Positions 10,686-58,100 of a stretch of 64,000 nt of DNA are shown here, piece after piece. Position numbers and translations under genes: made by a program. The notes below the pieces were generated by a model. The model did no database searches. It saw only the letters and a list, made by a program, of their open reading frames with translations, and was not told the origin of the DNA. Every line of letters starts with the position of its first letter. Within the stretch, counting starts at the first letter, position 1. Origin of the DNA: Hirudinaria manillensis (taxonomy: Eukaryota > Annelida > Clitellata > Hirudinida > Hirudinidae); the NCBI GenBank assembly GCA_034509925.1, contig CM067536.1, positions 522,001 to 586,000 on the forward strand, given 5' to 3'.

Positions 10686-15306
<4,621 letters not shown>

Positions 15307-27155: not shown

Positions 27156-30100
27156 CTATCAAATATAGAGATGTTATTAATAAATATACAAGCATAATAT
27201 TTTCCAAGTTTGCCTCAAAATCTTTAAATTTTAAATTCAGTTATTGATGTGGATGTGATGTGTTTGCACTACAAGTAAATTACGATATAACCATAATTGT
27301 CTTCAGAGGTTCTTTTAATTGAAGAATTTCTGTTATTCCTCCTTTTAGCTCTTTTACTAATAAAATATTAACTTGATTATAATGTAAATTTCATAAAAAC
27401 ATTGTTACACGGAAACAATTTTAAAACAAACAACACACACCTAACCAAAACGGCAACAATAACAACAACATTGAAAAACACCACCACTATTAATCCAATA
27501 ATCAAACCTGAAATGATGAAATTTTTTTATAAAGATAGATTAATAATATATAAGAAAACGTAATATTATTCCTAGCATTATTATTATTTATGGTGATATT
27601 CAGAACAACTCACCAAACATTGACACGTTTGATCCTTGAATTACTTCTATCTCCATGGCTTTGATAATGCATTCCTTATCACATTCAAGGCGGCATATAG
27701 CGAGGCAGGTATAAATGCCGGGCAGATGCATGTTTTCAACTCTAAGAATTGTCTGCTGGCTTTCAAACATGGCTCCCGAAGCTTCATGAATCCACTGATA
27801 TGAGCAGTGGACATTTTCACTCTTGTTGGCCAAACATTTTATATTTTGAAGATCTTTGGATGACACGTGTGATATTTCTGAGGCATTTTTTACGTCTGAT
27901 AATTTGGAAAATAATCAAAAAGGATAATAACAAGAACAATAACATGCAAAAGCAAATTTAATGTTATTTATATCTTTAATTATCTGGGTCAGGCTCTTGA
28001 TAGCACAGTAAGATAATTTGAGGTGTTTGCAACCCTTTGGGTTTGTAATGGCAAAGCGTTTGGGTACCAATGGACCCAGCAAACACATCCCGGAGGGGCC
28101 CGCGAGGGCTGAATGCGGGTTGCCCGTCTTGCCCGCCATCAGCTAAACAATTTTGATGTTATTTAGTTTGAAAATTCTCGCTAAAGCAGTCGCTGGTTCA
28201 GAGAATATTATTTAACTTGAATGTGCTTAATAAATAACATTTGGAGCTATTTAAAGTGAGTTTTCACGAATTAACGGCTAAGCAAATGGGCGGAGTTACG
28301 CCTGGTGGAGTGCTGTCTTTCTAGAGCCGTACTCGGAAGAAAGGGCAGAGGGCGGGTTGCCCGGCTTGACTGCATTAGTTAAACTGACTATTGATGTTAT
28401 TTAGATTGAAAATTCATACTAAATAAGTCGTTGGTGCAAACGATGTTATTTAATATGAATGTGCTCACTAAATAACGTTTGGAGCTATAATTAAATATAT
28501 TTAGAGCGAATTTGCATAAAGGCGAAAAATGGGCGGAGCGTGATGAGACGCGGGTATTTATAAGGTCTTTGTCTCTTGGTTCCTTTTGCATCTATTAGGA
28601 AGAGACTGGAACTGACTGGGATTTGTGTCACTGTTAACACTTTGCTGATCGAACTTAAAGATAGTGAGTTCTTATTATTTAATTCGATAGTTCATTGAAA
28701 ACTTTCAAGCTAAGGTTTCTTCGGCATCACCTCTTTAGGATGAGTATGTCATTTTTGTCAGCACGCACCCAAAGGCGTAAATTAGCGAAGCGAGTGTCTG
28801 AAATAATGGACTCATATAGGACTGTTACTTTTGTTAACGATCCTCCATGCTCAAGTATACACAATGGCATTGGTGATACAGTAGAGTGGATTGAAGAGTC
28901 ATATCAGGAGTTTGAAGAAACGTGGTCTGTGCGTTTTCAAAACTCTGACGAAGAAGAAATGATTGATTCTGAGGAAACAGTTGATGAATGTAACATAAAT
29001 GAAAGAATTGCTGAATGGGCCATATCTAATAATATTAGTCATAAAGCCACAAAAAGCTTATTGAAAATTCTTCAGCATGTTATTCCTAATCTGCCAAGTG
29101 ATTCGAGAACTTTGCTGAGAACAGATAGAAATACTATAAGCAAAAGCTTGGCTGGAGGAGAGTATTACTATTTTGCAATACAGTTTTGGTTAGAGGAGAA
29201 ATATGTTAATTTAATTGGAAAAGATATTTCTACAAATACTTTATACATTAATGTAAGCATAGATGGAATGCCACTTTTCAAAAGTTCAAATATCGATTTA
29301 TGGCCTATTCTAGCTTGCATTTCAGAAGATCCAAAATCTGATGTTTTTCCTGTTGCAATATTTTGTGGGAGTGGAAAGCCAACTTCTATTAATGATTATT
29401 TAAGTGATTTTGTTGAGGAAATGAAGGGTTTAGAAGATAAAGGCTTTTTGTATAACGGAAGAAATTTTAACATATTTTTGAATGCAGTTATTTGTGATGC
29501 CCCCGCAAGAGCATATGTCGATTGTGTTAAAGCCCACAATAGCTGTAATTGTTGTGAAAGATGTGTTCAAACTGGTGTATTGGATAATAAAGTTGTGTTA
29601 CCAGAGTTGGATTGCATTAATAGAACAGATGAATCTTTTTGTTTGTTGTGTCATAATGTTTTATAAAATGTATTTTTACATGATTTTTTTTTTAGAAATG
29701 CCTTTTTTAATTGTTGAATTTGAAAATACAAAAGAAGTGGATTATTTGCCAAATACCTGGTTAAATTTAGAGGAGAGCGAAATCTGCCAAATAATGAAAG
29801 ATAAAACCCTAGTTGATTGTTTTTGGCCACCTACTTCCATAAGGAATGTTTCTAAAGCTAAGGGATATGAGTATGGAGCCAAAAGAAGACTGGCCGAAAT
29901 ATCACCATCTCACTCATATCATACGTCAATGCCGTTTCATTCTCCATCACCTCATCAGTCAGCACTAATAGTTTCAAGGACCTTTGGTGAGTTAAGCAAC
30001 ATTGTAATGTTATTGAACAAATTCACATTCATTATTGATATATTCCTAAAATAGATTTGGAAAAGGTTGTGAAGGATATTATTTCAAATCAAGAAAGTAT

Positions 30101-32612
30101 TAAAAAAAAAGATTAACTTCATGTTCATCAAGAGTCAAAACCAAGGCAATGCGATTGAAAATCCAGATATTCCAGGAGTGCATCTCCCAGTTCGAGATGA
30201 CTCTGAATTTCTAGTCTTTGAGGACCTTTTAAAGGATCCTGCTATAAAATCTCAATTGGTTAGTGTAAAGGTAATATCTTAATATTTGTTTAATAATTTT
30301 TCATTTTTATTCAGATTTCTGCTTTATGTGTCAATGGAAGTTATGACCTAGATACAACAATGAAAAGGTTATTGAAGCAGCTTAACTGAGGATATGGCTC
30401 GATCATTTAACCTCACAGGGCAGTATGGCAAAAAAGCCTTTGGACGATCTGAGATGATGAAAGTTGTGTTTGGTTAGTCAGATGGCCTTAATGTCATATA
30501 TTTTAACTTTTAACCATGTGCTACTTATCTTAATCAGGTGTAGTGAAGAAGAATCCAAGCACATCAACCTCCACCATCCAAGATTTGGAAAATGGGCCAC
30601 GCAAATAGTTTGGGAACGCCAAAGATAGAGGGGATGGAAGTCGAAAGAGGAAATTAAATGTCGATGAATTAACCATTTTTTTAAATAAATATTTTATACG
30701 TATAGTTCGTCAGTTAATAGTTATGGCGGGTTGGATACGGTCGATCCGCGATTAATGGTCCGGGATTTGGCTGGGTAGCCCATGTATAATGGCTGGGATT
30801 AGGCTGGGTAGCCCGGATTTAATGGCTGGGCAACCCGAGACTGAAGACCGGGATTTGGCAGGGCAACCCGAGCTTAATAGCCGGGCAGCCCGCACGGGTC
30901 CCTTGCGCCCCCCGCGGTCAAAGCCTACGCGGGACCCGCGCATATGCCCGCCCGGGCACCGCGTGGGCCCCCCTGGGGTGTGTTTGCTGGGGAGAATGTA
31001 TTTATACACATGCAAACCACAATGGTAAAAAAAAGTGGCTTTATAGAAATACATTTAAAATCAATTTTATGGAAATCTTACTTACATTGAGTTCTGACTT
31101 CGTGCAACTGACATGGTTCAAACAAAGAATTTTCCAAAGCGCATTGAAATGTTGAGTTTTGTAGATCGTAAGCTATAGGCATATTGATTTGAATTGAAAT
31201 CTTTCGTGTTTCATCTTTCACTTCATAGCTTATTAGTGATGAATTTAATTTCTTTTTCAATGAATTAAATTTATATTTTTCAATCCATCCGAGATGAAGA
31301 AGGTTATAATTGATGCCGCCAAAGTAATTGAAAGAACATTTCAGATTTAAAACATCTGCTTCTATTCCATAGCAATCATTTTCTCCAATCAATGTAAGGT
31401 CTTTATTCATATTTTCATTGCATTCCAATTCTATTTAAAAAAATCCCATTACACTAATAACATATTTTTACATTTACATCTGTTACCTCCAACAACAACT
31501 TCTATTTCAATAAAATGTGTCATAGATTTTAAACCATACTTTTCTTCAAACTCAAGCGATTCTCCAATCATGCAAATGTATCTTCCCGCACTTTCCTTGT
31601 TTGCTTCAAGTATTTTCAGACTACAAGAAAGTTCGTGAGGTTCGCACAGAGCTTCGTAATTCTTGTTTAATGTTTCTTTTCCAGGCATGTTAAATATAAC
31701 AAAAGTTGCAACATTTGAAAGTGTTTTGTAACTCCACTTTGCTCGCGTCAAATTTTTTATTTTGTGTTCACATGGAAGAATGACTGTATCACCTTTCTTG
31801 ATTATCAATTCTTTATATTTTGGCACTGGTATTAATTTAATACTTAAGATGTAATTTAAAAATTATTTTATTATGGTATAATAACGATTGGCGCCTTTTA
31901 AAATCAATTACAAATCAAAATATGTTTGAAAAGTGCGGCGACCATCGAGGAAGTCGAGGTAAAAGTAGCGAAGCCGCCCCAAATTATGTTTTCACTAAAC
32001 TTTTTATTCCAGCAGATTACAGAGATTGCTAACCTCTTACGACCAACTCAATTTCGGTGATAGGCTTTAACAGGTTTTGCTCTTGTCCGCCATAACAAAT
32101 ATATTTTCCCGAATCTTCCTTTTTTGCTTGAATCAGTTTAAGTTTGCATGTTGAAACTTGGGGAGATTGACAGGAAACCTCAAAAGCATTTTTAAAAGTT
32201 TTCTTGTATCGACTGTCATATATGACTTCACTAATTTTGCCGTCTGAAGAGTTGAATTCCCATCGAACGTTAGCAATGTTCCCAGGTGAATTTTCCATTA
32301 CATGGCATCCAACTTGAAATGTTTCATTTTCTCTGATCACAATTCTGCTTTCTTGTAACCCTGTTAAAAAAAAATTGCTAAAAATTATTAGTTATTGCAT
32401 GTATAAGGTTTTCATTTTCATTAAAATAAAAATTGGGAAGAAGAAAGAAGCCAGTATTTATATTATATTAAGAATTATAATTTTCAATTTGCTCTAATAA
32501 CTTATTCAAAAATAATCTTTTGAATATCCTGTTGTTTTCAATTAAAAACATTACCTGATATTTTACACCATGTACTGAAGAAAAATATCCAAATAACAGG
32601 TGAATGCATCAT
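25309..32612 (-). CDS. Gene B: four-Ig transmembrane receptor with helical-repeat cytoplasmic tail
   Basis: Exons, minus strand: 32555-32612 signal peptide (MMHSPVIWIFFFSTWCKIS); 32033-32360 Ig1; 31487-31825 Ig2; 31086-31430 Ig3; 27614-27895 Ig4; 27441-27507 transmembrane (GLIIGLIVVVFFNVVVIVAV); 27292-27356 basic juxtamembrane (SKRAKRRNNRNSSIKR); 27113-27155; 26892-27046; 26615-26645; 26299-26498; 25940-25970; 25724-25833; 25569-25599; 25309-25495 (TAA). Intron phases join without a stop from start to end. The ectodomain is a close relative of genes A and E, with Ig3 nearly identical. The tail is unlike either: short exons of 10-15 codons alternate with longer exons that share a helical motif. 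No known enzyme or tyrosine-based motif was recognised. A 2.9-kb DNA transposon sits in the Ig3-Ig4 intron. Gene D starts divergently beyond its 5' end. Confidence 0.8.
28740..29666 (+). CDS. Transposase-like protein (TNP2-like motifs)
   Basis: The ATG at 28740 gives MSMSFLSARTQRRKLAKR, then an acidic stretch and a conserved core: LPSDSRTLLRTDR, GGEYYYFAI, VSIDGMPLFKSSNIDLWPIL, FPVAIFCGSGKP, VICDAPARAYVDCVKAHNSC and paired CxxC (CNCCERC). The order (Asp in IDGMPLFKSS, Asp in CDAPA, Cys/His cluster) is that of a widespread transposon protein resembling plant TNP2. The frame ends at a stop at 29664-29666. The last residues (LLCHNVL) may be intron read-through, as a continuing exon could exist. 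It is open and apparently undamaged. Confidence 0.7.
   Translation: MSMSFLSARTQRRKLAKRVSEIMDSYRTVTFVNDPPCSSIHNGIGDTVEWIEESYQEFEETWSVRFQNSDEEEMIDSEETVDECNINERIAEWAISNNISHKATKSLLKILQHVIPNLPSDSRTLLRTDRNTISKSLAGGEYYYFAIQFWLEEKYVNLIGKDISTNTLYINVSIDGMPLFKSSNIDLWPILACISEDPKSDVFPVAIFCGSGKPTSINDYLSDFVEEMKGLEDKGFLYNGRNFNIFLNAVICDAPARAYVDCVKAHNSCNCCERCVQTGVLDNKVVLPELDCINRTDESFCLLCHNVL
29698..30608 (+). pseudogene. DUF4806-type second gene of the transposon, decayed
   Basis: The start MPFLIVEFENTKEVDYLPNT with WLNLEESEI and DCFWPP is typical of the short proteins that accompany this transposon type. Later pieces match the DUF4806 domain: IENPDIPGVHLPVRDD ... FEDLLKDP (about 30150-30250), ISALCVNGSYDLDTTMKRLL (about 30316-30375), then in another frame LTEDMARSFNLTGQYGKKAF and MMKVVFG, and VVKKNPSTSTSTIQDLENG. 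The shift near 30387 and an A-run stop near 30113 break it unless splicing avoids them. Confidence 0.6.
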
Positions 32613-35177: not shown

Positions 35178-36597
35178 AAGGTGATAAGCTTGTAGCAGAA
35201 GGTGCTATGTCTTTATAAATATTGTGATAAGTTTGTTAGAGTTATAATTGTTTAATAATCAATATTATATTTGGTGAGTTGTGTTTAATTTAGGCTGGTA
35301 TTAGCTAAATGCTTAGCTGAAGTCTCTTTGTAATTATTTTATTAAACAATTTATTAAAAAAATAGTCTTCAATAATTTTTGATTTTTATGTTAAATAGTT
35401 AATGTTGAACTTCATTTCATTATGATTTCAGATTTGCTTGAAATAATCATTTAAAAATTTATTTTCACTCCATTTTAATGACAAATACTTGAAATGGTGA
35501 AATGTAAAATGCTTTTGAACTGATATTGATATGTTGCTTCAATGCAAACCATCAATTATATGTTGCATTGATCTCTGCATCACTGCCTTCATTTTTTTAA
35601 GAAATATATATCTTGTCATTCTTTAGGATTTCTATAGCATTGTCATCCAAGCTTTGATAAATTTTTAGTCCTACAAATTTTCTAACTTTTATGGCAATAT
35701 TCTATAATGAAATATTTCATTACAATATAGGACTTTTTTTTTAGTTTATTCAAATGTCAAAGAAGCAAATTAAACGTATATCATATTAAACAAACAATTA
35801 AATACATAACACAATGATGCAGATGAACCTAAAAAAGCTCGTTGAAATTGAGACCCCTGCGCTTAATTCTGGTAGAGGAATGAAGCGCAATTACGGGCAG
35901 ACGATTAGAAGCGCTCGGATTTTTAAGTCATCTTAACCTGTGGCGTGATTATATTGCATATGCAGAGTATGCATTGCAATTAACTAAATTAATTAATTAG
36001 TTATAACTCACGTCGATTCTTATTCCGTCATCAGTTGAAGGAACGAAACTGAACAATAAGTTCAATTAGACTGGAATATATGATTCTGCGTAGGAGTCGA
36101 TCAGTGACGTTTAAAATAACTGTTATGGTTATTTGCAATTTATTATTTAAAAAAATCAAATTTTAAATTAAATTAATAATAAAAGTAATGAAATCAATAA
36201 ATGTATCTGATCGTTGAAGTTTGAATAGGGGCAATTAATTATTATTATTATATATATTATAAATTTAATCATTAAATGATTAACTTCTGTTATTTAATTT
36301 TCATAAAATAAGCCTGTGCACCTTAACAAATAAACTGGGAATTCCAATGACATCTCGAAAGCAGTCATGCGAATCGTGTCGAATTGTACCTGTCTGAAAA
36401 CGATCGGCATCTCCATCTCGTACTGCAGAAGCAATTTTATTAATAAAGTGCTCGGAACAGATTATTAACTGAAGACCATCATGGATGGCTTACTAGTATT
36501 GGCTAATAGTTATTCGTGAGGTTGAGACTGTGTCATGGTTTATACTTTAGATTTATTTCACAAAAAGAGAAATTGGAAAATGATTTATATTAGAAAA
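35178..36597. promoter_or_regulatory. Upstream region of gene E
   Basis: No exon was found in 1.4 kb. The stretch 35830-36110 is less AT-rich than its surroundings and includes GAACGAAACTGAAC (36041-36054), which resembles an interferon-response-type IRF site (GAAANNGAAA). Any link to gene E is inference. Confidence 0.3.
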
Positions 36598-39500
36598 ATG
36601 ATTATACTTGTTGTTTGGATCCCTCTCATAGAATGTTTGGTCTTGCCAATAGGTGAGTTCAGGTGATTGGGGACATCCATAACGTTAACATGCTGATTAA
36701 AATCGAGCTAGCATGCTGTTTTCGTTAGAGGCAAAACATGCAAAATATTGTCGTCTAAAATATTTTAAAATTGAGAAAACGAGTAATAAAAACTTAAAAA
36801 TAAAAATAAAAGGCTGTTGCTAAATATGGACTTTTGCAGCCAGTCAAAAAGAGAGAAATAGAGTAAAAACAATCAAATTTTTGCGGACATCAATTTCTAA
36901 GTTGAGCAATTATCCGAAGGGACAACATATCCGTAGTATCATTAATGGCAACGAACCGAACCAGCCTGCGTTGCCGGTGAGTGGAGACGCTATGCAAATG
37001 GGAAAAGGTATTAAGAAGTGCCTTCATATTCCTTCGTGTCATTTAAAGGCACTCAAAGGATTCCAAATGCGACTAATATCGATATAAGCGTATTACAATA
37101 TAAGAAGCACAATTTAATATTATGTAAATTTTTATAATATTTTTATATTATAAACCTTTTAATTTTTATTCCACAATTTTTTTTAATTCTCAGTAAATTT
37201 CATTAATATTTGGCTATTAATTTTCAGTAATTCAAAAGGACAGATATGCAGTAAGAGAGAATAAAGCTTTTGAAATTGATTGCATTCATAAATTAAAAAA
37301 GGTATCAAGAGTTAAATGGGAATATATCTCAACAAATGATACACATGACGCAATCTACGACAGTCAACAACCCAACAAAATTTTAAAAAGTGGATTTGAA
37401 GTCTCCTGTCAAAGACATGAGACATTGATATCAACATGCAGTCTCAAATTGGTTCAAGCAAGAAAGGAAGATTCAGGAAAATATATTTGTTATGTTGGAC
37501 AAGAAGTTGATGCTGAGTTTGACTCCAATGCATTGAAGCCTGTTACTGAGATTGAGTTGGTTGTAAGAGGTATGTAACAGTTATGTTAAAGTGTCTTTGT
37601 TGCAATCCATAATGAAAGTCATATATGATGATATAACACTATCACTTCACACTTTCAAGTAAATTTTTGTTTGCAATGACTGAATTTAATATCATCTATG
37701 TTAGTATATTTTCAAAATTTAATTATGCATTGCAGGACCCATTCATAGAACAACAGCAGTAAACAGTGGTGACTCAAAAATTCTTCCATGTGAACACAAC
37801 ATAAAAAATTTAACACGAGCAAGATGGAGCCATGTTTCAACAAAGGGTGTTATAACTTACAGCTTCTATCACTTGCCATTAAAAAACACTTTAAACAGGA
37901 ATTATAAAGCTCTGTGTAAAGCTCATGAACTTTTTTGTAACTTGAAAATACTTGAAGCAAACAAGGAAAGTGCAGGAAAATATATTTGCTTGGTTGGAGA
38001 ATCACAAGAGTTTGAAGAGAAATATGGTTTGGATCCTATGACACATTTTATTGAAATAGAACTTGTTGTTGGAAGTAAGTGGTTGTAAATATCAATTATT
38101 AAGTATTATAAATTCACTAAATAAAATTTATAAACAGAATTGGAATGCAATGAAAATATGAAGAAAGACCTGACATTGATTGGAGAAAATGATTGCTATG
38201 GAATAGAAGCAGATGTTTTAAATCTGAAATGTTCTTTCAATTACTTTGGCACCATCAATTATAACCTTCTTCATCTGAGATGGATTGAAAAATATAAAAA
38301 TAATTCATTGGAAAAGAAATTAAATTCATCACCAATAAACCATGAAGTGAAAGATGAAACAAAAAAGATTTCAATTCAAACCAACTTATCTGTTGCTTAT
38401 GAGATGCAAAACTCAATATTTCAATGCGTTTTGGATAATAATCAAGTCAAACCATGCCAGTTGCATGAGTTCAGAACTCAATGTGAGGAAAATTTAAATT
38501 TTTTATTTTATTATTAATAAACCTTTATAAACAATATTTTTATTATTGGAATATATTGAGCGACAAAACGTGTATTTTAAGTATTTATTAAGATAATTAT
38601 GTTGTATGTTTATGTTGTATCTTGAATTACTTGCTATATAATTAAGGACTACTTTGGGAATTGGGAGATACTAAGCTGTTTTATTACCAAGAATGTGCCA
38701 TTGCACTAACCTCAAAAAGATTCTGTATATTATCGAAATAAACTTAAGTAATAATAAATTCTTACAATATTATTACATTATCCACAACAGTTTATTTATT
38801 AATATTTGAAATAAAAATTATTTAGATGTTAAAAACATGACAGAAAGAACTCAACCCATACACTTTAATAACCTCCACAACATGAAATGTTTGGCCAACA
38901 AGAGTTCAAATGTCCAATGTTCATATTATTGGGTTCATCAAATTGCAGGAGCCATAGTTGAAAATCCTTATGCAATCTTGCCTGTTGAAAATATTAACTC
39001 ACCTGGTATTTACACCTGTATTGCCAAGTGTCATTTTAGAAGCAATAAAGAGTGCCTTATTAAAGCTATGGAGGTTGAAGTTATTCAAAGATCAAATATT
39101 TCAGGATTGGTCGTTGGTCAGTGTTTTATTGATTTCCATTTACCTACTTGTCATGAGTTGGTGATTTAATGTGAAGTGCATCTATTGTTACTTTGATTAG
39201 ACAACCAAGTTGGGTTAAAGAATGTTTTTTGAAAGGTTAGGCAGTGAATCCATATTAAGGTGCAGTAACCCTTTGAGCTCCTGAAAAATTTAAACTGCAT
39301 CAACATTTAATCAACACCAACAATTTAAAAAAAAAAACATTTTATATCGGCATAAAAAGTGGACATAAACTTTAATAGTCGTTTTATGAATCCAAGATTT
39401 TTACTTTTCAGGTTTAATAGTTGGATTAATTCTTGGAGTTGCCACAACCATATTTTTATATATTTTATGTAAGACATATGAGAGGTTAGTTAGCTATTCT

Positions 39501-42356
39501 TAAATAAAAAATGGAATAATTATTGATTTCATAATGTTTTATGTTTAAATTAAACTCTATTTCATGATCACATTTGATGGTAATAGGATATATGGTTTAA
39601 TAAATTTGTTATTTAAATGTAATATTTATGATGCTACAAAATCATTTTAAATTTAATTTATTTAATTAAATTTGCTAGAAAAAAATTCAAAGCTTGGAAG
39701 AACAAAACAAATAATTTAACAGAACCTCTACTTGGAGAAGGTGAAGTAAACTTTATGGAATTTAGCAGTTGGGTCTTTGCATTTAAAGCTTTATCACAAC
39801 TAAATATTTTACTACTAATAATTACTATAATTTAAGGCACCACAGTGCAAAACATAGTGACCTTCATGTTTATGCCAGACAAACTGTGAGATAAACATAA
39901 ATAATTAAGTCCAAATGCTATAATTCCAATAATAATTGCAATAATAAACAACTTAATTTAATATAAAAACTTTTTTTGATAATTTAACTTTTCAAACAAA
40001 TTTGAATGCCACATTTTCCTTGCAATAACTTCCACTGCCACATGACCTATACCCCTACAAGATCAAACCAAAATCCATGTACATAACATACACATATTAT
40101 TAGCACTGTCTTATAACCTTCATCTTTAATTTAAACATGTCATTAAACAAAGTTGTTTCTGAACTTTTGAGTGCCTTTTCAAATCTGATGGGATGTGATG
40201 GCAATTCTTATTCAATCCCATTTGTATAATGTGACCATTGATCCATCCGTCCGTCCGTCCGTCCATCCATCCATTTTAAATTTCTAATCAAGAAATATGA
40301 CATTCTCATTACTTTTAAAGTTGGACGTGAAACCAAGGACTTAGTGGTTCAGGAAAAGCAACAGGAAAGAAATAAAGAAGATGGTAAATGAAAAGCAATG
40401 AAGCATTTAAATTCGAATTTTTACATATTTAAACCTTTATTCATATAATTCCAAATATTAAGTCATTAATTGATTTAATTTCAAAACAGATCTTGGCTGT
40501 AAATAAACATTTGTTTTAAAAAATAAGTTTTCTGTAATTTTTATTTTAAATAACTAATTCTTCTTATAACTTTATAACTTAATAACTTCCAAACAGAACA
40601 TGAAATCACCAGATTGTCTCCATCAACAAGAAAACCTTTGAAAGTCAAGAAGATGTTGCATGAAAAGATGACGAATCATCACGAAATCAAGATTTATGAG
40701 GCGTAAAATTTTGCTTTGTTTACATTACTTTGTTAAAAGCATCTTGGTAATAAAATCTTTTTTATAAGCTTTCTTTGAACTTGTACAAATACTTCTTAAA
40801 AACAGAACTGATAGTGATTATGGAAAAGTATTGATGATTGATGGAGCCATGTGGGATGCAGAATTAGAGAAGTACTCATATCAGAGAATGATGACTGTCC
40901 TTCCAATTAGGAGCCATCAAAATCCCATGAAAGTGAGTTTATTAACTGATCTTACCAATACCAGATAATATTATCATAATACCAGATAATAATCCAAAAT
41001 TATATTTTACTAAACAGTCTAATTATATTAGTTACTTTAACAAAATTAAGATGCATATTAAGTTAATATTATAGATTCAACAGGTTGCAATATTTTTAAA
41101 TTTAACTTTTATGTTTCTTTTGCATGCAGGTGTTGGTCATTGGAGGAGGTGAAGTAAGACTTGTGAAGGAATTAGTGGAGAATTCAGAAGTGGAATCCAT
41201 AACAGTTTGTGAGGTTGATAGGGTCAGTTCTCCAGTTCTGATATTTGACTTCTGTTGTAGACTATAATTGTATAATTATCTCTCTACAACAATTTTATAT
41301 TTAATTTATGAATTTATGCACGTCCAGCTATGGACATAGTGGTTTAATCAAGGAAGTTTAGGGAAACTTAGATACGACCAGAATAAAAGCAGATTGAACA
41401 CACTAGAATAAATCGATCAACATAACATGCTCAGTGAGCATTGCTCACTCTCTTTCTTGAATAAATTTGAAGTTTAATCTAAGAGAGGAAATAAAGATAT
41501 CTAGACAAGTGTGATTCTTCAAACTACTAAAAGTATTCTCTCCTCTGTTTCATGATAACTTTAATCCAGGAACTCCTTGCAATTTGTCGAAATTATGTTC
41601 CATCATTGGCTTCATCATTGGATGATGATAAGGTGAAGATCAACATTGAAGATGGATTTGAATTCTTAAAGAAAACTGAAGATACATTTGATGTCATTAT
41701 CAACCATTCATCAAATTCTGAAGGTGGATTTGGAACTAATAATTAATTTTATATTTCATTTTAAACATTTTAATGTTTAATAAATATATTCATGAAATGG
41801 ATTCAAAATATTACATTCTAAATTTGAAGTTGTGGTTGAAATTGTTGGAATAAAAATATGAAATTTAAATAAAATTCAATGCTATTTGCAGGTCCATCCA
41901 AATACCTCTTCACCAAAGAATATTATGAACTTGTTAAATCTAAACTTAACGAGAGAGGAGTGGTGGCCTCAATTGGTTAGTGCATTAATTAATTAGTAAT
42001 ATTACAATAATAATTTAATTGTTTAATAAATTGACTACATCAGTAGTTATTAGATATACAGTAACACAAAATAAAGTGCTTTAAATTTCTTACATAATAT
42101 ATATGTTTTTATTTGTTTAATTTTAATTGCAAGTTAATTTATTTATGAGTATGACTTAGTTAAAATATATTAATGAACTCATACATCAATATTTATTATC
42201 ACAGTCAATGGGAAAGATGCATCAGGATCTGATGTCTTAGAACAAATAACAATGAAGTTCTGCAAACAACTTTTCCCTGCAGTTCATTATTTTTACATTC
42301 CTGCATTCAAACATCCAAGTAGTCTTGTCAGGTCACTTGTTTGCAGTCTTGATGAT
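36598..42356 (+). CDS. Gene E: four-Ig transmembrane receptor with cytoplasmic spermidine synthase-like domain 1
   Basis: Exons: 36598-36652 signal peptide (MIILVVWIPLIECLVLPI; an in-frame ATG at 36580 is an alternative); 37228-37569 Ig1; 37736-38074 Ig2; 38138-38482 Ig3; 38826-39116 Ig4; 39412-39484 transmembrane (GLIVGLILGVATTIFLYILC); 39679-39740 juxtamembrane (RKKFKAWKNKTNNLTEPLLG); 40321-40383 repeat exon; synthase-like exons 40597-40702, 40806-40932, 41130-41222, 41570-41723, 41892-41975, 42205-42356. All phases join with no stop, about 655 residues. The domain has the full spermidine synthase order: HHEIKIYEA, GKVLMIDGAMW, YSYQRMM, VLVIGGGEVR, CEVD, EDGFEFL, FDVIINHSSN, LVCSLDD. The catalytic TDSSDP is NHSSN and GGGDG is GGGEV, so it should be inactive. 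A receptor with an intracellular pseudo-synthase is inferred. After 42356 the chain either ends soon or continues into the cassette at 45.2-52.7 kb. Confidence 0.85.
38613..38789 (-). mobile_element. Solo LTR with 5-bp target duplication
   Basis: A 177-bp LTR with TG...CA ends is flanked by GTTTA on both sides (38608-38612 and 38790-38794). It is the reverse complement of the LTR at 19284-19459. It lies in the Ig3-Ig4 intron of gene E. Confidence 0.85.
40240..40274. repeat. (CCGT/CCAT)n short tandem repeat
   Basis: CCATCCGTCCGTCCGTCC continues into CCATCCATCCAT, in the intron before the 21-residue repeat exon of gene E. Confidence 0.9.
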
Positions 42357-43095
42357 GTGAGTTTATTTACTGAATAATTTGAATTAATATTAAATAATTA
42401 ATTATATTTTCAAGTTAATAATTACTTAAATGACTTAATATTTTAACATGGACATTGTTCTTTTGAACTGCAGCACGATTCTAATTAGTTAATAATAATC
42501 TGATAATGTTTAACAGATTTAATAATTTTATGCTTAATAAATATTTAAATATTAATGAAATATTGCTTGGATTTTATTGCTTTGTTCAAATATGTTTTTT
42601 TTATTAATTTTAATTTTGCAAGATTTAAGTCCCGTTTAAGTTGTATGTATTCATATTCATTGGAATATCTTATTTCAAAGCATTTCCTTTTGATGAGTGC
42701 CCAAAACTCATTAATGTTTTTGTTTTTCTTTGAAGGACACAAGTTTTCAATATGTGTGTGGCGAGATGAAAGTTGAATATAAAGTTGGTTATGAAATAAG
42801 AATCATCACGAAAAGGTGACCAAATTTTAATCTATTTTAGTTTATTAAAAATATTCTTAAATCTCAATTTCTTAACTTTTAATATTTGTGTTTGAATTGC
42901 TTTTTATTTTATGTATGTTTTAGTCATGCAGTTGAATTAATAGTTTAATCTTAGTAAGAATAATTAATTATAGTATTAGTTTAATTATTTGATTAACTCA
43001 GAAAATTTATTGGCCCAAAAATATTTTGTTATATAAAACTTGTAACAAAAATTGAAATATTAATTAATTATTTTTCTCATTTATTTAAAATAAGG

Positions 43096-45190: not shown

Positions 45191-48100
45191 TTTTGGAATA
45201 GAAAGCTATGTTAAGGAAATCATGAAAGCATTTCTAGATTTGTTGAAGGAAGAAGGATTGGAACATTCTAGGAAGGAACTTGAAGAAGGAGTGAAGGTCA
45301 AGGGTAAGTTGGATCTTGAATAACTATTTATAAAAATGATGGTAAATGATATGGATTTGATTTTATAATAATATATAATAGAGTTGATAACTGCAAATTA
45401 CTTTTGGATGTACCCATTCATGAAAATTCTATTTTGAATATTTATCAAATCAATGATTATTATTTCTGGCAGCCATCTTTGTGTTGAAATATGCCAACAA
45501 TTTCTTTCATTTAAAACCTTGTCCAAGTATTATTATTGTTTACATTCATCAGATGAATACAAAACTCTTGCTAAGCCAGTATTTGAAGGAGACATGAATG
45601 AATATTTGAAGAAGATTGCCAGTGGTCCATCAATTATTCACCGTAATAATGAGATGCGCTTTAACAGAAGTGAATATATTTTATTTATAATGAGTTATTA
45701 ATATTAACATTTTTTAATATTTCAACTTTTAGCACTGTTAGAAACTTTGCTTTTGTAACAATTTAAATTTTAAACAGATTATTTTATTCTTTTTAATAAG
45801 TTTGAATATTTCATCAATAATGTAATATATGACATGATTGAAGGAAGCTTAACCAATGAAATTCAATACATCTTATTATAATTACTCAAATGCAATAAAG
45901 ACAATGCATGTATTAATGCATAATGCACCAGTTATTTATTTTCTTTTTGTAGCAAAATCTAGTAATGAATTTAAGGACTTTGTTTGAAAAATTTGTTTAA
46001 ATTTAACAATTTTTAATAATATTAAGGAAAGAGGATGTGGGTGAGTGACAAATCTGGTTCCAAAATGTTAAATGTGAGGAAGGTTTTGCGTGAAGAAAAG
46101 TCAAAACACCATAAAATCAGGATTTATAAATCGTAAGTGAAATAAATAATTATACAATAAATTTTTAATTTATTTGAAATAAGAGTTTTTAAGAGATGAC
46201 TTTAACAGTTTAAAGTAAAGTAAAGTAAGTGCATTTGTAAATATGTTTGCTCCGATGTTTTGACTGAAGATAGGGGGGGGACAATCGACCAAAATTATTT
46301 CATGCAAAATTCCCTAAAAATTATTTTAATTAAATTTTAATTAATTCAGTATTAATCACGGCAAGGTGTTCATGCTTGATGGAGCCATTTGGATGACTGA
46401 AACTTACTCTTTTCATCAGGAGGTTCTAACAACTACACCTTTGATCAGCCATAAAAACCCAAAAGATGTGAGTGAATTATGTTAATCCAAATCATGATGC
46501 AATCTTAACTTTTTTCAATGAATTACATTCTTTTAGATGTATGAATAACATAAAAAATATTCAAATAATAAATCTTTATATAATGAGCATAACGTTACAC
46601 GAAAGTGAAGTCTGCAATACGATCTTCAACAAAACCTAGTTTTACGATTTAAATGATTAAAAATCAACCGCTTATGATAAAAAATGTGCGGTTTATTTTA
46701 AAAAATAGTAGACACATTTATTTCCGATTATAAATATCATAAACCAATATTTGCATCAATATTAGACAAATGTGGTTTGCATAAAACTTTACTTAACTTT
46801 TTGACAAAATGAAAGTAAATCATGTTCAGGAATTCTATAACTTCTTTGGATTTGAGAGAGACGGATAGCATTTTGAACGACCAAATCAATGCACAACCTA
46901 AAAACTAGCCAAAACCATTTATTGGATCTATCATACCATATATGTAAGCCTAACCCTGCTGCATCATATAGCATTATATTATAGCCATACAGCATGCTAT
47001 ATTTTGGTTAGAAGTTGATTTGATTTATTGTTTTCTTGGTATCAGCAATATAACACAAATAACAATATTAGGACCGCGATTATATGATACCACAGGATGC
47101 CCGAAGAGAACAATGTTCCCGCTAGATGAGCAACCTATTCACAAAAAAAAAAACAAGTTACAAATCGATTCCATGGCTATTATACATCAAAGTTCATTTT
47201 AGCGGCTTATGAGAGTTTGAAGTAATATTTTGGGTACCGAGTAAATGCGATTTAAGTGATTTCTTGAACATTGAGGTCGAGGTAGATGATTTTATCTCTA
47301 TAGGTATGTCAGAAAATATTCGAGGACCACGGCATTTTATAGAAAATAGTTTCAAAGTTGTTCTGGCAGAATCCCAACGTAAGTCATTAATATTGTGCAA
47401 ACTGTAGGAGTGGCTTCCGCCAATCCTTTCAAAGTAGTCCTCGAAAAATGACGGTAACATGTTGTTAAAATATTTATAAATAAATATGCCTATTTGGAAT
47501 GTGTTTATGTTGTAGATTTTGAGAATTTTATGGCTGATGAACAAGTGCGTCGACGATGAAAAAGGATGATGATGGAAGATAATACGTAGTGATTTTTTTT
47601 AGCACTGGCCAAAGAGGTCAATCGGGATGGGTAAGTAGATGCCCAGGCTATGTTACAATATGATAAATATGGATGAATGAGGCAGTAGTAAAGGATAAGC
47701 AAGGTACTCCCATTGATGAATCCAGTGATCCGTGATAAAATACCACAGTTTTTAGAAATTTTCGAATGAATAAGATTGATGTGATTTTTCCAAGTGAGAT
47801 TATCATCCAATAAAATGCCAAAAAATTTACAAGACCTCACTCGGTTAATAATCGTTCCATTAATATACAATTTGTGATAAGAGACAATCTTTTTGTTATG
47901 GTGATGAAATATCATCTAGTTGGTCTTATTTAAATTAACAGATAACTTATTCGCGCAGAACCAGGTGAATAGACAATCGATTTCGCGGTTTATGAAGCTC
48001 ATGAGATTGTTTAGATTATCGCCAGTAACGAGGACATTAGTGTCATCAGCAAATAATATAAACTCAAAAAACGTAGAAGTCTGACAAATATCGTTAACAT

Positions 48101-51100
48101 AAATCAAAAATAGGAGTGGTCCCAGGATAGAGCCTTGGGGTACTCCACAAGAGATGGATTTGATTGACGATAGCACATTTTGGAAACAGACGCGTTAAGT
48201 TCTATTTTTTTAGATAGCTCCCAAACCAGCATAGAACAGGTCCGCGAACTCCATAATATTCTAATTTCTGGTATTCCCGATCGATAAGCCCTCTCTATTA
48301 TCGCTCACAACAATGGAGCAACCATAGCTCCACCCCCCATACATAATTTATTAATGTAGCTCCTCCTCCTGCTAATTTGTAAAAATAATTGTATATATTT
48401 TCTTAAAAAATATATTATTATATTTAAAAATATACGTTCAATATTTTAAAAATACTCAATCAAATTAAAATCAAGTAAAACAACACGTAGCTCGGCTAAA
48501 GTGAACAATGACAAAAATTGCGCGGGAGCTGACCGTCCAATCAGAGGCTTCTGGAAAATCAGGGTTATGGTCCGAGATTATATATCTCAATACCAGATTC
48601 AATTAGGGAGTTAACTTGCGCTTCCTTAAGACTGACCCTATGAGTTTATTTTGTATTTTAAGTTCATTTGTTTCATTGTGTTATGTACATAATTGTCTGT
48701 TTAATATTGTACATGTTCAATTTGCTATTTGTTCTTTCAGTTGCTTTGATACCTTAATAAACTCATAAACTCAACACAAAAAAAAATTAGTTATATTCTC
48801 CACCCATAAAATCCCACATAAAGTAAAGCACAGAATATTTATTTACAACAAAAAGCAAAGAGTATTTATGTACAAAATTTATACAGGATAATATGCTCGA
48901 ATCAGCTCCAGCGTCCTGTCGAATAGGGATCTCCTGGGTATCAAACGGCGCCAAAGGAACTCCGCGATGTGCTCAGGACAAGTTCCTCTCATTTTCGTTA
49001 TCTTGTCCTTCGCACATCTCCACATGTTCTCGACGGAGTTCGTGTTGACGCAGTTGGGGGCCACAAACATCAGGGAATGGTTCACAGTGGCGTGATCTAA
49101 TCCAGTCACTGCCGTTAAGTTTCTGTAGGCCCCCACTGATCGCTCCAGACAGTAGTGCCTATTAAAAGGAAATTAAAAGTTAATTCGTTTATTCCACTGA
49201 TTTACAGAATTATCTAAGTTTTTCTTACCTGGAAGCACGTACTGTCGTACTATCGGCAAGAGCGTTTTTGTATATAAATATGCTTTACTTTATGTGGAAT
49301 TTGATGGGTGGAGAAATAACTAATAAAGTCATATTTTCCAGAAGCCTCTGATTGGACGGTCAGCTCCCGCGCAATTTTTGTCATTGTTCACTTTAGCCGA
49401 GCTACGCGTTGTTTTACTTGATTTTAATTTGATTGAGTATTTTTAAAATATTGAACGTATATTTTTAAATATAATAATATATTTTTTAAGAAAATATATA
49501 CAATTTTTTTTACAAATTAGCAGGAGGAGGAGCTACATTAATAAATTATGTATGGAGGGTGGAGCTATGGTTGCTCCATTGTTGTGAGCGATAATAGAGA
49601 GGGCTTATCGATCGGGAATACCGTATGAAAAACAATTTAGAATTAAGATAATATTTCTACGACTTAAACAAATTTAAAAAATCGATTTGTTTGAGTGTCA
49701 GTTTAAACTGACGAGGGCTGCATATGGGTTAAATGTCAATTGGGCTGCTGTCACAAAAGATCATTGTCATCACCACCATCATCACATCACATTTGTTTAT
49801 CAATCAACATCTTCTTCCAGGTGTTGGTGATTGGTGGGGGTGATGGAGCAATTGTTAAGAACTTGTTGAAATATTCAAAAGTGGAATCCATAACAGTTTT
49901 TGAAATCGATGAAGTCAGTACCCTGAATATTAATTAATTATTAAATTAATTGATTCGCAATATAATTTTAATTGTTCATTAATTATCGGGATTATAACAA
50001 TATGTTAATTGCTGATGTATATGAAATTTGTTATCTAAATTGCTTTTAATCAGGATTTCATTTAAAATCTAATAACAGCGCATCATAGAATTGTCTCGTG
50101 AATATTTCCCCTCATTGGCCTGTTGTCTGGATGACCCTAAGGTCAAAGTTCACATTGGAGATGGAAATGAATTCATGAAGAAGCAGAAGAAGGCTTTTGA
50201 TGTCATCTTCATTCGTTCATCAACTGTTCAAGGTTGGAAATTTAAAGGTTTTGATGATGATGACGGTGATGATGATCTTATAATAGGGAACAAAGACTTG
50301 ATTTGTTTCTCAAAGAGCACATGGGCAATGCTGAAGAGTACACTAGTACCTGGAAAGATATAATAAAAATGTTGATGCATTGGTCTTGATCAAACATCTG
50401 TAGAGAGAGATTTCTCTATCAATAAGATTCTTTTACATGAAAATCAGAAATAAACTGATTACCTGAATATCAGAAGACTGATCAGGGATCACTTAAGCAG
50501 CATAGGTGGTGTTGCCTATTACAAAATCACTAACTCTGTAATTGGCTATTATAAAACCTCAAGACAAAGGTAACCCTTTTTTCTGGAGCCCATAGAAAAG
50601 AGAAGCATACTTCTGAAGCTAAGAAGTCGAAGGTAGAAGAAGATGATTTAGCCATGCAAAGGAAAATTAATGGATGAAAGTATCAGAAACATGGATGTGG
50701 TAACACAACTAAATAGTCCTAGAGAGGATAGTGAGGCAAAAAAAGACTTGAAGAATTTGAAAAAACTGCTCAAAAATGTATTTATTTTGGTTAATAAATG
50801 TATAGTTTGTTTTTCTGTGTTAATTTGTCTAATTTCAAATCATCATTGGAAAGATGTTTTATAAATTCCATTAGCAAGTCCATGTTTGCATGTCTGCATT
50901 ATTCCAATATTCAATATCTGACTGCTACCAAGAGGGGTGACAACATTATCATCATTATTGATTATTTGTTAGTAACATCAATGATTATTAGCTGGGAAAG
51001 CAAGCAAAAATAGCAAAGCTTCAACATATCAATTTGAATAATTTTTCTGCATTTTTTAACTTAAATATGACATCATTTTATAATTAGACAAATTGGAATA

Positions 51101-52658
51101 AGTATTAATACCTAATTAATTGTTAATAAATATTTGAGCATACTGTTTTCCATATGTAAAATAAATGTTCTTTCACATTTTGTAGAGTAATATTGAGATC
51201 ATTTCAAATATTTGACATTTGTATGGGAATGAAGTTGTAAAAATATCAAATGCTGATTTTTGTTTTAAGATGGTTACATAAATGATAAATATTATAATGC
51301 TGTTAAGGGAGCACTTAAAGATGGAGGTGTTGTTTCTTTGGATGGTGAGTGAAGAAATGATTGATCTTATAATTTTTGCAATCAAGATGATTAAATTTAA
51401 ATTTTATTGTTCTATTGCATTAAGAAATATATTAAATGTTAATTTAGTCACTGAGAAAGATGCAGAAGACGATAAGTATGATATGGATGCTGATGTCATG
51501 GGAACAAGAGCTATGGACTTGTGTGATAAATATTTTCCTGTGGTTTATTATTTTCATCTCCCATTTCAAGAACATAATGGTACTATAACCAAATGTCTCA
51601 TGTGCAGCCTCAATAAAGTCAGTTCCAATTTCAGCTTGATGTGAATTTTAAATTAAATAATCATCATTGCGTGGTTTAAAAATTGTTTAACATGACAAAT
51701 ATCATAATTTGGCAGTTTAAATATTGGCCTTTTTTGTTAATTACATGATTTATATTCAATTTTTTGCTAATAGTAATGTGATGTAATTACATGATTAATA
51801 TTAAGTTAAAAATATTATAAAATATCTTTCCAGTTGCTGCTATTTACAATTAGTTTATCAAAAAAGTATTATCTGTAACTAAGGCATTATACCATTTTTC
51901 ATAAAGTCTGTCACAAAACATTTCTTGAATTCTTGTTTTGTGAGTTTTTAACAAGTTTTAAAAACTTAGTAACTTAACTAAAAACTTGTAACACTTTAGG
52001 AAATCAACTTCAAGCTCTTGCTTAAGAAGGTTCAGGATGAAATGGCAGCACAAATTGAAGCTGAGGTAATGCCTTTCACAGTTGTTAAGAGGAATTTATA
52101 TTCACAAATAAAAACTTTTAAATCTTATTTCATAATTTAAAAATGATATTATTACTGTTGTGGTTTATTTATTAGTTTCATTAAATTTGCAAATCTTAAA
52201 CCATATTTTAATTATAATTTATGGGGTTAAATAATAAGTTTAACAACAATTATTATGAAATTATCACCCAATTTCATGAAACTGCTCTGATGAGCTTAAG
52301 AACATATAACTGAAGTTAATAGGAATTTGTGTTTGCAGGAAGACTTTTATTAACTTATTAAAACATTAATTAACTAAATTATTATTTATAAGATTGAAAA
52401 TAATATTTGTTTGTAATGACTATATATCTAAATAATATTGATTGATTCTGATTATTAACATTAAGTTATGCTTTTCCCATGATGAAAATTGCATTTTAAG
52501 ACTTCATCATTTTAAAATTTCAATAAATTATTGTAAATAAAACAAAATTATATTCTATTTATTTTGCTTAACATTTGTACATTCACTTAAATGTTTAACA
52601 CTTTAAAATGCAGATACAATCCAAACTGGAGAAGCAGAGTATGAAGAAAAACGTTTAA
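45191..52658 (+). CDS. Gene E continuation: linker and synthase-like cassette 2 (domain 2)
   Basis: Exons: 45191-45304 (FGIESYVKEIMKAFLDLLKE), about 45554-45668 linker (DEYKTLAKPVFEGD ... SGPSIIHR), 46029-46133 (KVLREEKSKHHKIRIYKS), 46352-46467 (GKVFMLDGAIWMTE), 49821-49913 (VLVIGGGDGAIVKNLL), 50079-50232 (IGDGNEFM, FDVIFIRSST), 51272-51343, 51450-51617 (PVVYYFHLPFQEH), 52001-52063, 52614-52658 (ends SMKKNV, TAA). The domain is complete; the catalytic motif reads IRSST, so it also looks inactive, though GGGDG is kept. The first exon is open only if entered after two leftover bases, while the previous exon of gene E (ending 42356) leaves none. In phase 0 it stops after FWNRKLC. Joining to the receptor therefore needs an unseen exon or another donor, or the cassette is separate. 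The 3.3-kb intron at 46.5-49.8 kb holds a LINE and a Merlin-like element. Confidence 0.68.
46500..47015. repeat. Dispersed repeat shared with 54040-54720
   Basis: Blocks such as AAAGTAAATCATGTTCAGGA, CTTCTTTGGATTTGAGAGAG and GATAGCATTTTGA recur in the same orientation at about 54555-54700. TTGAATTACATTCTTTTAGA-like sequence recurs at about 54058. No protein or terminal repeat was recognised. Confidence 0.6.
47194..48235 (-). mobile_element. LINE relic (reverse transcriptase, C-terminal part)
   Basis: On the minus strand [20 protein letters not shown] and FADDTNVLV (altered catalytic box) are followed by thumb motifs (KFFGILLDDNLTWKNHI, YCLIHPYLSYCNIAWA) and the C-terminal pattern (LKLFSIKCRGPRIFSDIP). 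A TAG near 47916 and a shift in the A-run near 47590 disable it. It resembles the LINE at 480-2953 in motif order but is clearly diverged. It lies in a gene E intron. Confidence 0.8.
48560..48787 (+). mobile_element. Short 5'-truncated LINE copy nested in the transposon arm
   Basis: It contains ATATCTCAATACCAGATTCA, GCGCTTCCTTAAGACTGACC and TGAGTTTATTTTGTATTTTA as in the 3' end of the LINE at 480-2953, and ends in an A-run (48777-48787). A few bases of the transposon arm were lost on insertion. Confidence 0.82.
48879..49274 (-). pseudogene. Merlin-type (ISXO2-like) transposase C-terminal fragment
   Basis: The main exon (about 49162-48879) reads TVWSD, GAYRNLTAVTGLDHATVNHS, NSVENMWRCAKDKITKMRGT, the last two Asp/His/Glu blocks of the ISXO2-like DDE family. 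An upstream exon near 49274-49230 gives LLPIVRQYVLPG before a GTAAG donor. A missing G in the run at about 49131-49135 breaks the frame between SDQW and GAYRN, and the N-terminal half is absent. Confidence 0.72.
50350..50660 (+). pseudogene. Transposase C-terminal relic (hAT-like dimerisation region)
   Basis: One frame reads LDQTSVERDFSINKILLHEN, then stop, then RRLIRDHLSSIGGVAYYKIT and YYKTSRQR. The pattern ERxFSxNK...EN...R.I.DH....GG is common at the end of hAT-type proteins. Several stops are present. It lies in a gene E intron. Confidence 0.4.
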
Positions 52659-55106: not shown

Positions 55107-58100
55107 CTAATAAAACGATTTTGGTGATGGAGCCTCTCTTCCTGCAATCAAATGTCCTTGTCTATTTTTACTCAGTTTCTGTTTCGCCCATTCTATCAAA
55201 GACTCCAGATCTGTTTTAAAATATTAAGTGCTATTGAAATGTTTGATTTTTAGTAATATTTGTCTATAAGTAAATATTTAATTTTTTAATTTACCAAGGA
55301 TTTAACACATTCATTCAGGTGTTTCATGAAAATAGTTGAAGGATCTTTTTATTCAATCTACCTGTTGTATCGTTTAATCGAAGAATAACTAGTCTAGAAC
55401 AACGGTTTCGGCACAAGGCTATTTATAGCGGCCTTACACAATAGAATGCCGCACTCCACTCCACTATTGGTGCTCCACCGCAACACTACCATTTCTACAG
55501 AGGTGTTTAAAAGCAATCTTGAGTCATGAACAAGGTGCTTAAAGACTCTAGCCATTACCACAAGCATTCAACCAACTTGAACATCAATTCATAAATTATT
55601 TGAAGTCATTTTTTTAAAAATAAAATGTGCCATCCTAACTTGTGTATCAACATGATATTATATCACATGATATTCATGATATTCAGATTCTCAAATGGGA
55701 TTATTAAAACATCTTTTGACAACTGGAAATGGCCTTACCTTTACTTTGTTGTTTCCCTTTTTCTTTTAATATCAACTCGAACAGACCAGAAAATGCAATT
55801 CCCTAAGTTCATTGTTAAGATTTTAGAAGAATCATAACAAGTATAGCATTCATAAGAAGATTATTGTACGATAACCTTATATTTAATGTTTATATTAAGT
55901 CTTATGCTGGACTTAATATTGCCTTACAATTAAATTTGTGTTAACCTTTTAACCTATAACCCTAACCCTGAAGAATAACTACGATGATGATGATGGTGAT
56001 AATCATAATAGAAGTAATAAATTGAATTTCAAGCAGAACTAACATCTTTGAGGCCACACAAGAGACATCTTATCCTGGTACCAGGATGTTCATAGAAGGG
56101 AAGGCAAAAATATGTAACTGAAGGGAAAATTTGGTCAACCATCTCTTTTATTGCCAAGACATCATCATCATTATCATCATCATCATCATCATTTTTTATT
56201 TCTTTTCCAGTGACTGAAATGTATATTAAACTTAATTCAAATTAATTTATTGTTCAATTTCAATATAAAACTAAAATAAACGTCTGAAAAATATTTTTGA
56301 AAGGTGTTGGAACTAACCAGCTAAAGAAACAATGCCTCCACTTTTGAGTGCCTTTTGTATAGCCTCATAATATTCCTTATCAAAATAATTATCTGTAAAT
56401 AAATAATTTTATTGCATTAAAATTTCAAATAAAAGAAAACCATGGTTATCTTCCTTGATATTGATGGCATAAGGCAAATGTATTTTGGATTAAAAACTTA
56501 TATTCACGTATTTTAAGCAAAAAGTTTGAAAAATCAATATAACCATAGAAATTATAACAAAATAACTTATTCATATTTATTCAAAATTCCAAGACATTCT
56601 TTAGTATTTTAGTTCTTTAATAATTATAACAGTTGTGTTTTTATATCAAACAAAATCATTTCCAAAAGTAAATTTCATCCTGAAAAGGGATGAATTGAAC
56701 TTTTATGGATGATGGGGAGGACTAAACATGTTATGATTTCTAATTCAATTTAATTACAAATTCTAATTTAATTAAAATTAAACTTGTACATTTAATTAAT
56801 TGATAAGGATATATCAGCATCTGTTATTAATAAATTATGATTGGATTGAGATTTTTGATCTTTTTAAATTATTAAAAAATCTTTGTGCTCATCAACAAAA
56901 ATGATGTCCTAAAATATCATATTGTAATAACCCGGGCTCCTCAAACTAATTATAGAAGGTCAGGTTTATTGAAAGTGTTCAGATGCCTTGGAAGATGTAC
57001 AATGCTTGAATGTCTAAGTCTTGAAATCTGCTGTTTCTCTAACTCTCGCTCTGATTTTCGAGATAACTCTATTTGTCGAGATTCATAACCAAAGACTTTA
57101 ATCAATCATCAAATTATATTGCTAATAAATTAATTAATTGCTAAATTAATTAATCGGCAATATAATCTTAATTATTCTTCAATTTACTGGATCTAGGGAT
57201 CCAACAATATGTTATATAATAATATGTTTTACAATAAATATGGCTACTAATTACTATATATCAAGTGGCTAAATATCAGCAAATATCAGCAACTTTATGA
57301 AATCACAATTAAAACTATATATGATTTCAAACCTTGAAGTTTTGTTGAATTAATGAAGATGACATCAAAAGCATTCTTCTGCTTCTTCATGAATTTATTT
57401 CCATCTCCAATTTGAACTTTGACCTTAGGGTCATCCATGGAATGGGCAAAGGATGGGAAATATTTACGACCCAATGCAATAATGCGCTGTTATTATATGC
57501 AAAAAAATAAATATTTGTAAAAACTAATTCACAAATGAAACAATGCTTTGTAAATTTTGGTCAACAAAGTGTTTTGTGTCATTCATCATTAACTTTTATT
57601 TTAATTTTCTGATTTAATATAGATTTGTGCACAACATATTAAATATATAATTCTTATATAAGCTACAAGAAGGCCTAAGATACATAATTGATATACACAA
57701 CTGTGTCAAAACTTTTTAATTAAGCAACATCTGGAATATATCTACGTAACAATTGTAAACCAAAATTGTCCTTTAATTGTGATTGAATCAACAGAATCAT
57801 TTTATAACCCTTTGAGGCAACAATCACATAAATAATCAAATGATCAATTTAATGTAATGCCTGTGACATTGTAATACTTAATACTTTGTATGTAATTATA
57901 GACATAAACAAACGAACAGGCAAACAAAGCAGCAAACAGGAAACCATAAATTGAAAACAAAACTCTTTATATCTACTAAAATCTATCTTTATGGGACATT
58001 CTAGAATAATCAGCGTAAAATATTAAAAATATTTGAATATCTCTCAAACCCACCACAAACAATGAGTAGAAGGTGGATGAGCATAAATAACATAAGAATG

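Follow-up and report, generated by a model that had tools for sequence, protein, structure and literature searches.

Receptors whose cytoplasmic part is a pseudoenzyme include ErbB3, RYK, the guanylate cyclases with their kinase-homology domain and the receptor protein tyrosine phosphatases (RPTP) with their D2 domain, and they are thought to act by association. Dscam and the FREPs are expanded recognition families of invertebrates with immunoglobulin (Ig) ectodomains and diversity; we know of no synthase-derived tail in families of this type. Spermidine synthase (SRM; PF01564 plus PF17284; human structure 2o05) is an oligomer. Here, a 64,000-nucleotide stretch of the leech Hirudinaria manillensis (contig C11, positions 522001-586000, hereafter the window) was analyzed within the whole assembly (148.4 Mb, 23 contigs). 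The gene under study, gene E, is in our estimate (probability of about 0.65) a member of a lineage-specific family of type I Ig-superfamily receptors with a catalytically dead spermidine synthase as cytoplasmic part, the fold probably serving as a dimerising or docking module. As in ErbB3, RYK, the guanylate cyclases and RPTP, a dead enzyme fold would lie behind a transmembrane segment; by this comparison, the leech fold differs in being that of a metabolic aminopropyltransferase. SRM has the same domain and has no receptor, transmembrane or linker exons, whereas the receptor tail is devoid of the catalytic residues, the start codon and the N-terminus of SRM. The likeness to Dscam and FREPs, by description, lies in Ig ectodomains and diversity. 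The trypanosome S-adenosylmethionine decarboxylase (AdoMetDC) prozyme is a dead paralog of a polyamine-pathway enzyme whose action was demonstrated (PMC5201418). It derives from another enzyme and is not known to have a receptor part, and the function proposed for the leech protein is deduced from sequence.

Gene E was modelled as 15 exons in one open frame, with GT-AG internal junctions and phases that agree. Its protein, re-aligned by a spliced aligner, returned identical exons, which is a consistency check and not independent evidence. The first-pass annotation had described, from 36598 to 42356 of the window, an unbroken exon chain joining a signal peptide, four Ig domains, a transmembrane segment and a full synthase fold. 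The chain was recovered at this site with both of its ends displaced. The best start is at 36580 (MIYIRK-MIIL...), a methionine located six codons 5' of the one at 36598. The equivalent methionine is kept in frame in the paralogs F, R9 and R10, in the contig C6 copy and in the fragment R11, and neither R9 nor the C6 copy has an ATG where the 36598 start would fall. Position 42356 is the end of exon 14 and not that of the gene; the stop is at 42819, and similar terminal exons with stops are present in the paralogs A and F. The signal-peptide-like exon 1 and the putative transmembrane exon 6 are hydrophobic by eye and conserved in the paralogs.

Two of the four claimed Ig domains were retained. 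Module 1 is recognised as a V-set domain (28.7 bits, cut-off 26; 27.2 bits in gene F) and module 2, with an Ig score of its own of just 15.2 bits, is homologous to module 1 in profile comparison (probability 100). Modules 3 and 4 were not confirmed. For module 3, no Ig match was obtained in any of 13 copies, the profile-comparison probability is below 1% and the structure model has a pLDDT (predicted local distance difference test) of 42. Module 4 gave a single Ig_3 match (E=0.08) in one of 11 copies, with a profile-comparison probability of 2% and a model pLDDT of 65; V-set folds are among the Foldseek matches listed for it, yet none reaches E<=0.001. Exon 4 (window 38138-38482) is 97.3% identical at the nucleotide level over 28 pairs of eight genes, compared with averages of 82-90% for the other ectodomain exons and 84-89% for the adjoining introns. 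This near-identity may be due either to local gene conversion or to unusual constraint.

The full synthase fold was recognised in gene E. The synthase part matches PF01564 (Spermine_synth; E=2.2e-40, 138.6 bits, cut-off 22.9) and the tetramerisation part PF17284 (Spermine_synt_N; E=2.7e-7, 30.8 bits, cut-off 22.1), and the closest solved structure is the human spermidine synthase 2o05 (E=3.4e-50). The intron phases within the domain are those of the SRM gene of the same organism. This intact SRM was found in the same cluster (C11:694553-692277, minus strand), with its own ATG in the exon matching the first synthase exon. It retains all the active-site residues compared and its PF01564 score is 253 bits. 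The first coding exon of SRM is preceded by an acceptor with a frame open in phase 1; 5' of the gene, in the same orientation, is the receptor R12.

In human numbering, we take Asp173 and Asp176 to be the catalytic residues, Trp28, Tyr79 and Tyr241 to form the putrescine site, and Glu124 and Asp155 the adenosyl site. Compared with the leech SRM, all 11 dead paralogs of C11 and C6 have replaced Asp173 by His, Arg or Asn and Asp176 by Asn, Thr, Ile or Lys (His and Asn, respectively, in gene E). Both aspartates are also lost in the three copies inspected on C1 and C2, thus in 14 of 14 overall, and an active membrane-bound spermidine synthase is ruled out by the loss of catalytic residues. Tyr241 and Gln49 are both His in 11/11 C11/C6 paralogs; at Trp28, Tyr79 and Tyr241, gene E carries Ser, Tyr and His, which does not amount to a putrescine site. 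Polyamine sensing via the original active site, a role put forward by the first-pass annotation, is unlikely with both catalytic aspartates gone. Loss of the polyamine pathway as the cause of the dead copies was ruled out, as the genome contains the ornithine decarboxylase (ODC) and AdoMetDC genes besides the intact SRM.

The fate of the adenosyl site differs between the two sets of copies. The equivalents of Glu124 and Asp155 are retained in 11/11 C11/C6 paralogs, and the binding of an adenosyl compound, also suggested at first, stays possible for these copies. In the C1/C2 copies the pocket is mostly lost: the GGGD glycine loop has become GTCE, GRCE or GRYE, Asp155 is gone in three of three and Glu124 in two of three. 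The C11/C6 copies might thus act as sensors that bind methylthioadenosine, S-adenosylmethionine (AdoMet) or decarboxylated AdoMet, occupancy altering the association of the tails. Such a sensor would be compatible with the conserved Glu124 and Asp155, while the uniform Gln49 to His replacement and the alteration of Asp104 in E, F, A, R10 and the dead copy S580 speak against it, as do the three C1/C2 copies, where purifying selection persists although little of the pocket is left. We regard it as quite improbable, and as a family-wide role ligand sensing appears weakened by the C1/C2 pocket loss.

The transition from receptor to synthase was analyzed in nine copies. All nine show phase-1 entry into the first synthase exon, and in seven of them this exon offers no in-frame ATG. 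In the six C11/C6 copies, no in-frame methionine is found at or 5' of the start of this exon, and the frame closes 4-9 residues upstream of the conserved synthase part. The length of the preceding intron is 213 nt (E), 90 nt (F), 126 nt (A) or approximately 314-354 nt (R9, the C6 copy and R10). The linker exons 7 and 8 are common to E, F and A, although in A cassettes two and three of exon 8 are degenerate or short. R9, R10 and the C6 copy share an acidic exon, and their second linker exon is of another type. The linkers of A and of these three copies were assigned by visual inspection. Taken as a prediction, the receptor-synthase fusion is well supported by the genomic evidence. In the receptor gene R4 (window 18806-20118), three phase 1-1 exon-8-like cassettes were observed, and near window 19.05 kb there is a fourth, apparently truncated stretch.

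The arrangement recurs elsewhere in the genome. Gene F repeats the layout of gene E in 15 of 15 exons, in agreement with the first-pass annotation, and chance exon chaining was ruled out by the recurrence of the same chain in F and at five other loci. Profile searches of C11:482001-706000 and C6:10192001-10212000 revealed 11 ectodomain blocks besides gene E, plus fragments, and 11 dead synthase copies together with the true SRM and remnants. A genome-wide search with exon 4 yielded 44 matches, 14 of them fragments or distant and 30 strong (at least 78% identical along most of the exon), the latter distributed over C11 (11), C2 (12), C13 (5), C6 (1) and C1 (1). Of the 30 strong loci, 17 have synthase exons 3' of them in the same orientation (C11 5/11, C2 10/12, C6 1/1, C1 1/1, C13 0/5); six of these (E, F, A, R9, R10 and C6) were modelled for both the ectodomain and the synthase part, and three on C1 and C2 in part. 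The pairing would hence be more than the artefact of one locus, as had been argued, since it recurs on C1, C2, C6 and C11. The PF01564 search of the genome gave 23 matches, on C11 and C6 only; the diverged C2 and C1 copies were found by a later search, and further diverged synthase copies beyond those counted may exist. On C1 (2494262-3030052), ten distant exon-4 relatives with 24-34% identity apparently form another receptor group, of older origin.

Weak purifying selection acts on the dead synthase domain. The pooled omega of this domain is 0.57 (0.37-0.91) among E, F and A, 0.58 (0.41-0.83) among R9, R10 and C6, 0.52 (0.37-0.71) between these two groups and 0.53 (0.40-0.70) for the C1/C2 copies; the ranges come from bootstrap and are somewhat optimistic because the pooled pairs share branches. 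For the Ig part, omega is 0.49. The modelled copies have no stop codon within their synthase part. In a neutral simulation, the frame survived in 5% of the runs at 73 substitutions and in 0.05% at 270, so that persistence of the open frame under neutrality would be unlikely. The synthase exons could be recent baggage without function in a decaying family, as suggested by pseudogene remnants (R2, 537.8 kb and 555-556 kb) and by omega values of about 0.5, but the intact frames, their rarity in the simulation and omega upper bounds (0.70-0.91) below 1 make such decay very improbable. In the synthase tree, with SRM as outgroup, E, F and A stand apart from the other copies; support for grouping SRM with E, F and A (88/86) is under the significance mark of the tool.

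Several observations weigh against a fused receptor family. Eight of the 17 paired loci are paired by position only, from six-frame matches, several of which have stops inside or at the match edge. At 13 of the 30 strong loci (six on C11, two on C2, five on C13), synthase exons were not detected; two of the five C13 loci were read through and contain none, and R2, one of the six unpaired C11 loci, carries two synthase remnants. Conversely, five dead synthase copies (S518, S525, S533, S568 and S580) have no recognised ectodomain, and together these two sets indicate that receptor and synthase parts are separable. In E, F and A, a transcript that retained the intron after exon 8 would run into a stop two codons further, so that a short-tailed receptor form is possible. 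The C1 and C2b copies, two of the three on C1/C2, have an in-frame methionine in the first synthase exon. Eight of nine inner branches of the ectodomain tree are unresolved, leaving no comparison of co-inheritance with the synthase tree. The linker omega between E and F is 0.46 with a range spanning 1 (0.21-1.16), and omega values near 0.5 are themselves a weak signal. Finally, the fusion is predicted from genomic sequence.

The same data could be read as two adjoining genes duplicated as a unit: an Ig receptor with a short tail, terminating after exon 8, and an independent gene for the dead synthase. The immediate stop on intron retention, R4 and other receptors without synthase, the five copies devoid of a recognised ectodomain and the true enzyme, a stand-alone gene with R12 upstream on the same strand, are compatible with this arrangement. 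It would nevertheless place both genes of F just 90 nt apart and leave the second gene without an in-frame methionine in seven of nine copies, and it has to accommodate the phase-1 entry in 9/9 and the co-linearity of the pair at dispersed sites on C1, C2, C6 and C11. We consider it decidedly unlikely and retain a single fused gene as the preferred reading.

The coordinates of gene E and of the related features of the window are collected in Table 1.

Table 1. Exons of gene E and members of the same family in the window (window coordinates).
Feature	Position	Strand	Remarks
Gene E, exon 1	36580..36652	+	start codon and signal-peptide-like hydrophobic stretch; hydrophobicity judged by eye
Gene E, exon 2	37228..37569	+	Ig module 1 (V-set); exon model, profile match
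Gene E, exon 3	37736..38074	+	Ig module 2; exon model, profile comparison
Gene E, exon 4	38138..38482	+	cysteine module 3, Ig unconfirmed; marker for the family count
Gene E, exon 5	38826..39116	+	cysteine module 4, Ig-like but unconfirmed
Gene E, exon 6	39412..39484	+	putative transmembrane segment; hydrophobic by eye, kept in F and R9
Gene E, exon 7	39679..39740	+	basic linker, presumably cytoplasmic
Gene E, exon 8	40321..40383	+	linker cassette (phase 1-1), with repeats in R4 and A
Gene E, exons 9-14	40597-40702, 40806-40932, 41130-41222, 41570-41723, 41892-41975, 42205-42356	+	dead spermidine-synthase domain
Gene E, exon 15	42736..42819	+	terminal exon with stop
Gene F, 3' part	60558..64000	-	exon 6 in part, exons 7-15; remainder at C11:586001-588594
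S568	46065..51617	+	dead synthase copy 3' of gene E, same strand; no ectodomain recognised; intron insertions
S580	56044..59034	-	dead synthase copy 3' of gene F, same strand
S525	3171..5586	+	dead synthase copy, no ectodomain recognised
S533	11184..13702	+	tandem copy almost identical to S525
R4	18806..24224	-	same-family receptor, three exon-8-like cassettes; no synthase exons found
R5	27401..32612	-	diverged receptor of the family; synthase exons not found

Directly 3' of E (window 45-52 kb, C11 567-573 kb) and of F (C11 578-582 kb), in the same orientation, lies another dead synthase copy that has linker exons of its own, and S518 occupies this place after A. An own start codon for S525 was considered and dropped, S518 having shown an additional 5' exon. 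Between gene E and S568, window 43170-45067 contains a long terminal repeat (LTR)-like element in which 299-nt direct repeats, 99% alike, flank an open frame with a SAP domain. Within an intron of S568 (window 48270-49622), 290-nt inverted repeats are 99% complementary and accompanied by a weak ISXO2-like transposase match (18 bits, cut-off 27). The open frames at window 727-2757 and 6722-8893 resemble, by eye, retroelement reverse transcriptases.

Outside the window, a near-identical copy of the mitochondrial COX1 region was detected on the nuclear contig C9 (3026446-3027786), which is either a recent transfer or an assembly error. In the mitochondrial contig of 15,581 bases, TGA codes for Trp and AGA/AGG are best translated as Ser; its COX1 is probably leech-like, and the gene order is ND3-ND2-COX1-COX2-ATP8-COX3, which we take to be the annelid one. 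Antistasin domains gave 63 matches (150 of 162 candidates scored), many of them clustered on C2 at 1.72-1.78 Mb, and the annelid erythrocruorin linker domains eight, seven above the cut-off. Together these features point to an annelid, probably a leech.

With respect to origin, a receptor gene may have stood upstream of SRM or of a dead SRM copy on the same strand, and a phase-1 linker donor would have been spliced into the first synthase exon. The fused unit would then have undergone tandem duplication on C11 and C2 and spread to C1 and C6. At the cell surface, the ectodomain would recognise a ligand or a neighbouring cell; in the cytoplasm, the synthase fold would be the dimerising or docking module and might pair with the free dead copies or the true enzyme. 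Of the roles listed by the first-pass annotation, the dimerising scaffold would fit best. The C1/C2 copies have lost the pocket yet the exons of the fold appear constrained, which would favour a structural role over ligand binding family-wide.

A related proposal is that of a membrane-tethered regulator, in which the dead domain and the true spermidine synthase would assemble into mixed oligomers, the enzyme being recruited, activated or restrained in a prozyme-like manner. The N-terminal tetramerisation domain is still detectable in E and F, an intact enzyme is present in the genome and the prozyme is a dead paralog with such a role (PMC5201418). On the other hand, the C1/C2 fold is strongly diverged and a tetramerisation domain was not reported in the C2a synthase part, and these two points make pairing with the enzyme across the family doubtful. 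Such a regulator seems unlikely to us, and a dimerising or docking module is still preferred.

Three points go beyond the first-pass annotation: the synthase part is a pseudoenzyme, the gene for the intact enzyme belongs to the same cluster and the family extends over the genome. Protein searches, in collections with few or no named animal genomes, returned four distant PF01564 proteins and, among 6627 candidates, none at E<=0.01. The four are prokaryotic (P0001-P0004), with PF01564 in chains of 731-822 aa and no Ig domain listed; they cover 38-43% of the query region at 29-31% identity. An architecture combining an Ig receptor with a spermidine synthase was not found in the open-access literature by title or abstract start. 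Pseudoenzyme-tailed receptors are known, and one based on an aminopropyltransferase was not found in these protein or literature searches.

The clustering, the copy-number turnover and the remnants are reminiscent of recognition-receptor families. It is conceivable, albeit unlikely, that a clustered receptor repertoire (17 loci by position) signals via a domesticated pseudoenzyme whose C11/C6 pocket binds an adenosyl metabolite, recognition being gated by the methionine/polyamine state; such a system would have no known counterpart. Provided that the fused proteins are produced, an enzyme of core metabolism became the cytoplasmic module of a multigene receptor family. As intact, free dead and fused copies occur in one cluster, the steps from enzyme to signalling would, if this is true, be readable in one genome. 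The question raised is whether surface recognition can be wired to polyamine/methionine metabolism via a pseudoenzyme or whether the fold is merely a dimeriser.

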